Positions 60,448 to 63,731 of a stretch of DNA of 64,000 nucleotides are shown here, piece by piece (the first letter of the stretch is position 1; every line of letters starts with the position of its first letter). The position numbers and the translations under genes were made by a program. Under the pieces are notes generated by a model. It did not search any database, was not told the DNA's origin, and worked only from the letters and a program-made list of their open reading frames with translations. The DNA comes from Desulfuromonadaceae bacterium (GTDB lineage: Bacteria; Desulfobacterota; Desulfuromonadia; Geobacterales; Pseudopelobacteraceae), in assembly GCA_028688955.1 (NCBI GenBank), contig JAQTXD010000007.1, positions 1-64,000 on the forward strand, read 5' to 3'.

Positions 60448-61419
60448 TCACGGCCGGATATCAACGATTGTGCCAATTGGCACCAACCGGTCAATTTCCT
60501 CGATTTCTTCGTCTGTTACGGCAATACATCCCTTAGTCCAGTCCACCTCAGTGTGAAGATCACCTACCCAGGAGAAACCATTCTTAATGCCGTGGATCAT
60601 GATATCTCCACCCGGAGAAACTCCACGTTCTTTTGCTCGCTTTTTATCCCTCTCGTTTGGATATGAAATGTGGAGTGAGAGATGAAAGCGGCTGTTTTTG
60701 TTTTTTGAATCGATCCTGTAAGTCCCTTCCGGTGTCTTATTGTCACCCTGACGTTCTTTTGCCCCATCCGGGTTTCCACCCAGGGCTATCTGATAGGTTT
60801 TGAGCAGTTTTCCCTTTGTTAATAATGTCAGGCGCCGTTCTTTCTTTTCAATCAGAATCCGGTCTGCCGGTCCCTTCGGGATGACAGCAGCACTCTCCTT
60901 TTTGAGTGTTGCAATGTCGCTCTCTTTGCTCCTCACCTCTTGCTCGAGTGCCGCAATTCTTTTTTGCAGGGAAGCAATCTCATCCCCCCTGCTTTGAAGC
61001 TCGTGCCGAAGCGCCTCTGTCTGTAGCTGCTGCGCAGTAATCGTCGTATCTTTGGCAATGACATTATTGATATTAAATATCATCATTTCACTGTCCTTCC
61101 TGAATCCGCTCTCCGGAAAATCCTTTATGAGCTTTTGAAAGCACTCCAAAGATTTCTGATACTGTCTCTGTTCATTTCCGGGGTACGCATACAATATACC
61201 CATTTCAAAAAGTGCCCGGTCTCCCGCTGCGGGATACGTGTCAATGATCTGCTGATATTTGACCAGAGAGGACGTGTAGTCACCCTGGCTGAACAAACCG
61301 TTCGCTTCTGAAAACGTTTCCCTCACCCGGGAACCTTCATTGAAATGACCGCATCCGCAGAGATACAGCGGCGCAAGGATCAAGCAGGCAAAGAACAGGA
61401 TGTGATGTTTGCTCGTCAT
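60448..61419 (-). CDS. lipoprotein L,D-transpeptidase with TPR-like and coiled-coil N-terminus (YkuD family)
   Basis: Lipobox YLCGC; coiled coil; YkuD motifs DIMIHGIKNGFSWVGDLHTEVDWTKGCIAVTDEEIE. Confidence 0.92.
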   Translation of the reverse strand: MTSKHHILFFACLILAPLYLCGCGHFNEGSRVRETFSEANGLFSQGDYTSSLVKYQQIIDTYPAAGDRALFEMGILYAYPGNEQRQYQKSLECFQKLIKDFPESGFRKDSEMMIFNINNVIAKDTTITAQQLQTEALRHELQSRGDEIASLQKRIAALEQEVRSKESDIATLKKESAAVIPKGPADRILIEKKERRLTLLTKGKLLKTYQIALGGNPDGAKERQGDNKTPEGTYRIDSKNKNSRFHLSLHISYPNERDKKRAKERGVSPGGDIMIHGIKNGFSWVGDLHTEVDWTKGCIAVTDEEIEEIDRLVPIGTIVDIRP

Positions 61420-61507
61420 ACTTTCGTACCCGTTTTGGAATTTGTCTTCGTCAGTATACTACGGTCAATCGCAGGACCATCCCACTTCCAGTAATCAGAT
61501 GCATAAG

Positions 61508-61540
61508 GAAATGGCAGGGTATCACAACCCCTGCCATTTC
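61508..61540. terminator. hairpin between the Lpp-like gene and the downstream L,D-transpeptidase gene
   Basis: GAAATGGCAGGG...CCCTGCCATTTC; weak U-tract on the minus strand, possible attenuator. Confidence 0.55.
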
Positions 61541-61588
61541 TTTTCCGGCACACTCCCGGCAAAGTCAAGAACTTCTCGTAAAATCAGC

Positions 61589-61933
61589 TTACTTCTTCAT
61601 TGATTTACGGAAAATATCGTCAGCCTTCTTTGCCTTTTCATCTGCAATCTGCGATTTTTCATCAGCAATTTTTGCCTTCTCATCGGCAATTTTCGCCCGT
61701 TCCTCTGCCATCTTCAAAGCATTTTCTGCCCGGGCTGCGGCAGCTTCCGCCTTAACTGTGGCCGCATCAGCCGCCGCCTTGGCAGCCTGTGCATCCTGTG
61801 CCGCCTGGTCAGCTTTTGCACCAGTCATCATCTGCTGTGACTGAACTTTTTCAAGGTCGCCTGTTGTTGCACAACCACCCATAGCAGCAGCCAGAGCAAA
61901 TACCAGTGAGATTACAATAATATTATTCTTCAT
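61589..61933 (-). CDS. Lpp/alanine-zipper-like outer-membrane lipoprotein with C-terminal lysines
   Basis: Lipobox AMGGC; Ala-rich heptads; AKIADEKAKIADEKSQIADEKAKKADD; ends FRKSMKK. Confidence 0.82.
   Translation of the reverse strand: MKNNIIVISLVFALAAAMGGCATTGDLEKVQSQQMMTGAKADQAAQDAQAAKAAADAATVKAEAAAARAENALKMAEERAKIADEKAKIADEKSQIADEKAKKADDIFRKSMKK
61637..61699 (-). repeat. three 21-bp tandem repeats encoding seven-residue (K/Q)IADEK(A/S) heptads
   Basis: ttcatctgcaatctgcgattt / ttcatcagcaatttttgcctt / ctcatcggcaattttcgcccg. Confidence 0.75.
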
Positions 61934-63276
61934 CGTTTTTCACCTCCTTTCTCTTGATTGTCCTTCTTGATGGGTTCAATCAACGTACCATCAATCTCCA
62001 AATCGATTTTCAAGCGTTTGATTGCATCCGTAGCCTCTTTGATAGTATTGAAAGGGCCGGCAACAACACGGTGGCTAACCTCCTTTGTGACTACCCGTGC
62101 CGGAATTGGCGGGCCCTGGTGATTGATAATTGCGGCAAGCCTCACCGCATCATTTTTATCCTTCAGGTCAGCAGCCAGAACGGACCACGAGTTCGCTCTC
62201 AGTTCCGGTATTTTCGGCCTGCCCTGTAATTCGGCCGGGTGCCGGATTTCTACAGGGTCCGCACCCGTTTTTCCCGCTCCCTGCCGGATTTCAAATAGAG
62301 GGACAGGAATACCGCGTGCTTCAGCCAGGACTTTTTTGACTTTATTCCAGTCAAGCGGGCGCCCCGATTCCCTTTCAATCGTTTTCAGTTTTGCGTACAT
62401 CCTGTCCAGTTCAGCAATGTCCAGATCTTCTGTGGTGCCATGAACCTCCAGGTAGACAACACCATTGCTCCTGCCAATGAGATACGGCTGGTAGACAAAG
62501 TTTACCGGCGTTTTAACCGGGGTGCTCTCATAGAGTACTTTTATGCTTTCGGGATAGAGCCGAATACAGCCATTGGTTGCCCGCAGACCGATGCTGGCCG
62601 GTTTGTTCGTGCCATGGATCAAATAACTCGGCGCACTTAAGTAGAGCGCATATTCTCCCAGAGGATTTTCAGGCCCCGGCGGAACTGACGTGGGCAGCGG
62701 ATCGCCTTTTTTCAGATGATCCCTGGCGATTGAAGCCGGCACATGCCAGGTCGGCCGGCTTACCTTGCGTTCAATACGCATATTCCCCATGGGCGATGGT
62801 CGTTCTTCCGTACCGACGCCAGCCGGGAAGGTCAATATTTCGAGAGACGTACCTTTCTCTTTGAATTGAAATAGCCGCATCGCCGCCAGGTTAACGACGA
62901 TTCCTTTCCGGGGAGCATCCGGCAGAATATAGCTGAGAGGCAGCATGATTCGCTCTCCGGCCGTTGGTACCCATATATCTACTCCCGGATTCGCAGCACT
63001 GACACCATTGAGACCCAGGCTGAAGTGCCGGGCAATATCCGGCAGTGTATCCCCCTTTTCAAGACGGAGCAGCTTCAACCGGCCAATGACATCATCATTT
63101 TTTGCAACGGAAAACTCGTTTTTAACCACATATTCTTCCAACGGACGCTGAACGGGCGGGGGTTCCTCGTACGCCCTCTGCATGGTAACGCATCCGTTAA
63201 GTGCCAAGCTGACGATAAAGAAAGCCACAATGTGAAGCGATTTTGATACCGGTTTCAGCGTAAGGGTTTGACGCAT
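61930..63276 (-). CDS. L,D-transpeptidase with LysM-like N-terminus and SPOR-like C-terminus
   Basis: Lipobox ALNGC; LEKGDTLPDIARHFSLGLNGVSAANPGVD LysM; YLIHGTNKPASIGLRATNGCIRLYPESI catalytic motif; C-terminal SPOR-like SWSVLAADLKDKNDAVRLAAIIN...HRVVAGPFNTIKEATDAIKRLK. Confidence 0.92.
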   Translation of the reverse strand: MRQTLTLKPVSKSLHIVAFFIVSLALNGCVTMQRAYEEPPPVQRPLEEYVVKNEFSVAKNDDVIGRLKLLRLEKGDTLPDIARHFSLGLNGVSAANPGVDIWVPTAGERIMLPLSYILPDAPRKGIVVNLAAMRLFQFKEKGTSLEILTFPAGVGTEERPSPMGNMRIERKVSRPTWHVPASIARDHLKKGDPLPTSVPPGPENPLGEYALYLSAPSYLIHGTNKPASIGLRATNGCIRLYPESIKVLYESTPVKTPVNFVYQPYLIGRSNGVVYLEVHGTTEDLDIAELDRMYAKLKTIERESGRPLDWNKVKKVLAEARGIPVPLFEIRQGAGKTGADPVEIRHPAELQGRPKIPELRANSWSVLAADLKDKNDAVRLAAIINHQGPPIPARVVTKEVSHRVVAGPFNTIKEATDAIKRLKIDLEIDGTLIEPIKKDNQEKGGEKR

Positions 63277-63368: not shown

Positions 63369-63414
63369 AAAAAAAACCGGGGGCCGATATCTTCTGGATA
63401 TTTCGGCGACCCGG
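63369..63414 (-). terminator. intrinsic terminator of the promoter-distal riboswitch
   Basis: CCGGGTCGCCGAAATATCCAGAAGATATCGGCCCCCGG-T8, overlapping the aptamer 3' end. Confidence 0.8.
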
Positions 63415-63482
63415 CTGTCTTCTTGAGACCCTGTAGGCTTTCCGTCCCATTCTCGCGAATGGTTTAGTATTATCGTCTAACC
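63395..63482 (-). ncRNA. GEMM-I cyclic-dinucleotide riboswitch aptamer, copy 2 (promoter-distal)
   Basis: Minus strand ACGATAATACTAAACCATTCGCGAGAATGGGACGGAAAGCCTACAGGGTCTCAAGAAGACAGCCGGGTCGCCGAAATATCC matches the GEMM-I layout (AAACCAUUCGnnAGArUGGGACGnAAAGCC...). Confidence 0.9.
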
Positions 63483-63558
63483 ACGTCTGCGTTATCCCGC
63501 AGGAGGCTCCCCTGTTGAAGAGGGAATTGTCAGTGCCGCAAATCCCGAAAAACGGCAC

Positions 63559-63604
63559 AAAAAAAACCGGGCCCGAATATCATCTGGATATTTCGGCGAC
63601 CCGG
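63559..63604 (-). terminator. intrinsic terminator of the promoter-proximal riboswitch
   Basis: CCGGGTCGCCGAAATATCCAGATGATATTCGGGCCCGG-T8, overlapping the aptamer 3' end. Confidence 0.8.
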
Positions 63605-63672
63605 CTGTCTTCTTGAGACCCTGTAGGCTTTCCGTCCCATTCTCGCGAATGGTTTAGTATTATCGTGTAACC
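63585..63672 (-). ncRNA. GEMM-I cyclic-dinucleotide riboswitch aptamer, copy 1 (promoter-proximal)
   Basis: Nearly identical to copy 2; same GEMM-I core. Confidence 0.9.
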
Positions 63673-63701: not shown

Positions 63702-63731
63702 CATATATCCCTTTACGGGGAATATTGTCAA
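63702..63731 (-). promoter_or_regulatory. candidate sigma-70 promoter driving the tandem riboswitch leader
   Basis: Minus strand TTGACA-N18-TATATG, ~30 nt upstream of aptamer copy 1. Confidence 0.55.

Follow-up and report, generated by a model that had tools for sequence, protein, structure and literature searches.

Tandem GEMM-Ib riboswitches, each complete, in the leader of a probably cGAMP-activated envelope operon

The window, by which we mean the whole 64,000-nucleotide stretch of DNA that was analysed, very probably contains the leader of a cGAMP-activated envelope operon that carries two complete GEMM-Ib riboswitches in series. Two full aptamer-terminator units lie on the same strand, spaced 190 nt apart, ahead of a single operon (Table 1). 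The mechanism of such switches is already known, and the tandem layout on this operon has already been published or seen in Geobacter. The operon that the pair would control is the least explored part of the system.

Table 1. Coordinates of the riboswitch pair, the downstream operon and the candidate cGAMP synthase gene. Positions refer to the window except in the last row, where they refer to locus L074.
Feature	Position	Strand	Details
Candidate promoter	63702–63731	−	Found by eye; TTGACA at 63731–63726; weak −10, ATATAT after 17 nt or TATATG after 18 nt
Probable GEMM-Ib aptamer, copy 1 (upstream)	63592–63668	−	RF01051, 46.2 bits, E 7.4e-6
Copy 1 key bases	63658; 63631; 63596	−	A equivalent to G20; A47 equivalent; C92/C75 equivalent
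Intrinsic terminator 1	63559–63605	−	From fold, with shared 5′ arm 63605–63592; eight T at 63566–63559
Probable GEMM-Ib aptamer, copy 2 (downstream)	63402–63478	−	RF01051, 45.4 bits, E 1.1e-5
Copy 2 key bases	63468; 63441; 63406	−	A equivalent to G20; A47 equivalent; C92/C75 equivalent
Intrinsic terminator 2	63369–63415	−	From fold, with 5′ arm 63415–63402; eight T at 63376–63369; part also in terminator scan
Gene 1, lipoprotein L,D-transpeptidase, 448 aa	61930–63276	−	YkuD PF03734, 73.8 bits; SPOR PF05036, 36.5 bits
Gene 2, Lpp/OprI-type alanine-zipper lipoprotein, 114 aa	61589–61933	−	C-terminal Lys; PF11839 and NF040598 over cut-offs
Gene 3, lipoprotein YkuD-domain protein, 323 aa	60448–61419	−	PF03734, 71.3 bits
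Putative GacA orthologue (L074, contig C77 of the window's genome)	1474–2838	−	Receiver and GGDEF domain; GHMIGS; GGDEY instead of GGDEF

Searching the whole window with cmscan returned exactly two Rfam matches, both of them to RF01051, the model of the c-di-GMP-I (GEMM-I) riboswitch. Both are on the minus strand, both score above the model's gathering score of 35 bits, and both cover the full model (positions 1–87 of 87), including a GCCGAA 3′ end that aligns to it in each copy. This Infernal search was one of the checks proposed in a preliminary description of the sequence, which had placed two nearly identical minus-strand GEMM-I copies about 190 nt apart at 63369–63672. That span is correct, and an in-register comparison at the 190 nt offset found a single difference among the 77 aptamer bases. 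Identity between the copies extends past the aptamer through the 5′ arm of the terminator and is lost in the 3′ arm, where they diverge (GATATTCGGGCCCGG versus GATATCGGCCCCCGG). The positions of the ligand pocket were mapped from the Rfam alignment and the Geobacter numbering of PMC6274999. In the Rfam alignment both copies have an A at unpaired model position 11, where Vc2 has G20, and the next two bases, C and U, face G and G; the earlier claim of an A at the ligand-specifying base is thereby borne out in both copies.

Assignment of both copies to the GEMM-Ib class, which would make them probable sensors of 3′,3′-cGAMP, was also part of the preliminary description and is well supported. A20 is found in all 46 aptamers at orthologous loci (see below), G20-type copies and a Hypr GGDEF enzyme are both found in the same genome, and cGAMP control of the GSU0181-0183 operon has been published (PMC6456294). 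In the window's genome, 13 of the 15 GEMM-I copies have the ACU (A-type) form and two the GGC (G-type) form, so that it carries both GEMM-I classes. While RF01051 is itself the c-di-GMP-I model and the genome encodes many ordinary GGDEF enzymes, it is very unlikely that the two aptamers are promiscuous sensors that answer chiefly to c-di-GMP, or to both dinucleotides. The A at position 20 would lower c-di-GMP binding but need not abolish it. In a Desulfobacca acetoxidans A-variant, affinity for cGAMP was gained and affinity for c-di-GMP perhaps only slightly lost (PMC9481103). However, in tests of the Geobacter homologues Gs1761 and Gm0970 the preference for cGAMP was roughly 1200- and 1600-fold (PMC6456294, PMC8835794), and a separate G20 class is kept in the window's genome.

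The only two G20-type (c-di-GMP-like) copies of this genome, at 2862–2936 of contig C189 (L001) and 7327–7400 of contig C141 (L002), have a different 3′ terminator layout. Three further A-type tandem pairs are present, on contigs C159 (11695/11895, L004/L005), C94 (42070/42213, L012/L008) and C180 (13856/14015, L014/L013), and two of these three precede genes for products with one CxxCH heme motif. G. sulfurreducens possesses 17 GEMM-I copies, several of them in tandem (PMC6456294); 13 of them have been classed as GEMM-Ib, and binding of cGAMP has been demonstrated for 12 (PMC8835794).

A likely source of the ligand is encoded in the same genome. Of its 33 GGDEF matches, 30 were fetched and three left out, and the GHxxG motif was readable in 27 and unreadable in three. 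Exactly one of the 27 domains read has the Hypr serine (GHxxGS) in place of the usual aspartate. Another GGDEF domain, at L076 on contig C74, has asparagine (GHSAGN) at this position, which is neither aspartate nor serine. The Hypr protein is 454 residues long, combines a response-regulator receiver with the GGDEF domain, and has PDB entry 6d9m as its best match, at 203 bits versus 147 bits for PleD. This entry fits a Geobacter-type cGAMP synthase domain, its deposited name agreeing with the GmGacA T4-lysozyme fusion of PMC6456294. Given the Hypr motif and the 6d9m match, the organism likely has a cGAMP source in this putative GacA orthologue, whose gene adjoins one that resembles histidyl-tRNA synthetase.

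In both units the 5′ arm of the terminator is the aptamer's own 3′ strand, including the ligand-pairing C, which is C75 in Geobacter numbering (PMC6274999). The terminator stem and the ligand-bound aptamer are therefore mutually exclusive by their shared strand. The 3′ arms of the two terminators differ (ATGATATTCGGGCCCGG versus AAGATATCGGCCCCCGG) but retain their pairing to an identical 5′ arm, giving stems of about −18 kcal/mol each with the T-run excluded. Each copy does have a terminator of its own, as first described, with distinct 3′ arms that both pair and that each end in eight T. The ligand-free minimum-energy fold holds the terminator, with the C75 equivalent paired inside it in both copies, at −34.5 and −34.6 kcal/mol versus −17.8 kcal/mol for the aptamer state, these being equilibrium values that are silent on timing. 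The idea that the copy 1 terminator is always the stronger of the two was rejected; this is true at several loci of the genus and not at others, and the two are equal in the window.

A close mechanistic parallel is the pilM riboswitch of G. metallireducens, an ON-switch in which aptamer and terminator are mutually exclusive (PMC9262584). As in the window pair, the terminator takes up C75, the base that pairs with the ligand; unlike the window pair, the pilM cGAMP riboswitch was studied singly and drives pilus genes (PMC9262584). Because the terminator captures the aptamer strand here and the pilM switch works likewise, the window pair should act as two ON-switches in series. This agrees with the ligand-ON reading that had been suggested by the overlap of the terminator 5′ arm with the 3′ side of the aptamer.

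By analogy with published orthologues, which supply both the ligand and the ON direction, the pair would operate as follows. At low 3′,3′-cGAMP, the downstream 3′ arm would capture the aptamer 3′ strand with its ligand-pairing C and form an intrinsic terminator, whereas cGAMP bound via A20 would retain the 3′ strand in the aptamer and allow RNA polymerase to pass. With two such decision points to pass, expression would require both aptamers to be occupied, which would lower basal leak and steepen the response. The output would be two YkuD proteins, the first of them a lipoprotein L,D-transpeptidase, together with a Braun-like lipoprotein. A steeper response of the window pair would be expected from tandem-riboswitch theory and from one tested c-di-GMP triplet, that of Bacillus thuringiensis, both of which point to a more digital response (PMC9481103). 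The passages of that paper used here catalogue 347 doublets and 12 triplets of tandem c-di-GMP-I riboswitches, in which, as in the window, the units stand in series; there they are catalogued as c-di-GMP-I, and A20-type cGAMP sensors have no count of their own.

A candidate promoter upstream of copy 1, picked out by eye, weakly suggests that a single leader would contain both riboswitches. A consensus promoter scan found no minus-strand site upstream of copy 1, and transcription may start between copies 1 and 2.

With the first downstream protein as query, 60 genomes were searched for orthologues, one of them being the genome that contains the window. This gave 28 strong orthologous loci, namely the window and 27 others whose first protein is 60–74% identical. 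At least one RF01051 match lies just upstream at all 28 loci, for a total of 46 aptamers. Tandem pairs are found at 18 of the 28 loci, across three families, with a spacing of 129–220 nt. Nine loci with sufficient upstream sequence have a single copy, and one further locus is cut by a contig end. Since nine of the 28 loci are single-copy, two riboswitches in series are not essential everywhere. The pocket is invariant, with the A at position 20, the same CU/GG closing bases, and an A at the A47 equivalent, following the closing-pair GG, present in every one of the 46 copies. Higher Rfam scores at some loci prompted a search for mixed pairs of one c-di-GMP and one cGAMP aptamer among the orthologous loci; none was found, all 46 copies being A-type. 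Furthermore, a hairpin and T-run follow each of the 46 copies, the T-run being interrupted in one (L044 b), which is in line with the inference of the preliminary description that the hairpins are maintained independently.

These loci bear on how the second copy arose and whether it matters. The near-identity of the two aptamers and the existence of single-copy orthologous loci would both fit a second copy that arose neutrally by a recent tandem duplication and contributes no regulation. We consider this unlikely, as a copy without function should decay, whereas tandem pairs are present at 18 of 28 loci in three families with distinct 3′ arms that all still pair. The pairs are old, because they are present in three families. 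It is a serious, if tentative, possibility that their near-identity reflects repeated homogenisation of an old pair by gene conversion rather than recent duplication, an origin compatible with two working riboswitches in series. In the window's genus, copies within a locus differ by a mean of 3.3 bases, versus 5.8 among the copy 1 aptamers and 6.9 among the copy 2 aptamers of different loci, while the more divergent pairs of other families differ by 6.8 within a locus versus 3.4 for copy 2 between loci; these are base counts rather than a tree, and come from 77 nt of strongly constrained sequence. Independent re-duplication would produce the same pattern, and the comparison is thus only suggestive of homogenisation or repeated duplication in the window's genus.

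One of the relatives provides an experimentally studied counterpart. A cytochrome of relative genome G033 matches structure 3ov0, which we take to come from G. sulfurreducens, with no mismatch over 302 residues, and this genome is almost certainly that of G. sulfurreducens. Its orthologous operon region, at 194.9–199.2 kb, has a pair of A-type GEMM-I copies with a spacing of 199 nt, and lipoprotein genes in the same order as in the window. From this position and gene content we infer that the region is GSU0181-0183, the transpeptidase operon of G. sulfurreducens that is controlled by cGAMP and is 16-fold lower in a gacA deletion (PMC6456294). The window operon resembles it as an envelope operon of lipoprotein transpeptidases under cGAMP control, which in the window is predicted. 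The species differ, the first proteins being 60% identical, and the window copies are more alike than the G033 pair, with one difference versus five.

Finally, we examined the proteins that the pair would control. Gene 1 has the lipobox ALNGC within an NGCIRL motif, and its best NCBIfam match is LdtE, below cut-off. Gene 3 is weakly LdtF/DpaA-like, with 45.6 bits to NF040599, far under the cut-off of 365. Because these matches fall below the cut-offs, the names LdtE and LdtF/DpaA are withheld. Lipobox-like signal sequences are present in all three operon proteins (60448–63276). The gene 2 protein ends in KSMKK, with the terminal lysine conserved; a C-terminal lysine is found in the alanine-rich lipoprotein of all 25 operons with a complete protein, the window included. 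In E. coli, attachment of Lpp goes through its C-terminal lysine. There, Lpp is attached to peptidoglycan by LdtA, LdtB and LdtC and detached by DpaA (PMC10653827).

From this operon content it is reasonable to hypothesise that cGAMP controls an anchor of the outer membrane. More speculatively, the strength with which metal-respiring bacteria fix their outer membrane to peptidoglycan might be set by cGAMP. The double riboswitch would then act almost as an all-or-none switch for a Braun-like lipoprotein, its attaching transpeptidase and perhaps an enzyme, similar to DpaA, that detaches the lipoprotein again; we hold this fuller scenario to be possible but doubtful. Through the window pair, the cGAMP regulon would come to include a further lineage of the same order, and conservation of double riboswitches ahead of this envelope operon is wide. 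What the second riboswitch contributes could be measured on orthologues that naturally have one copy or two, and the operon itself points to a testable role for cGAMP in outer-membrane anchoring.
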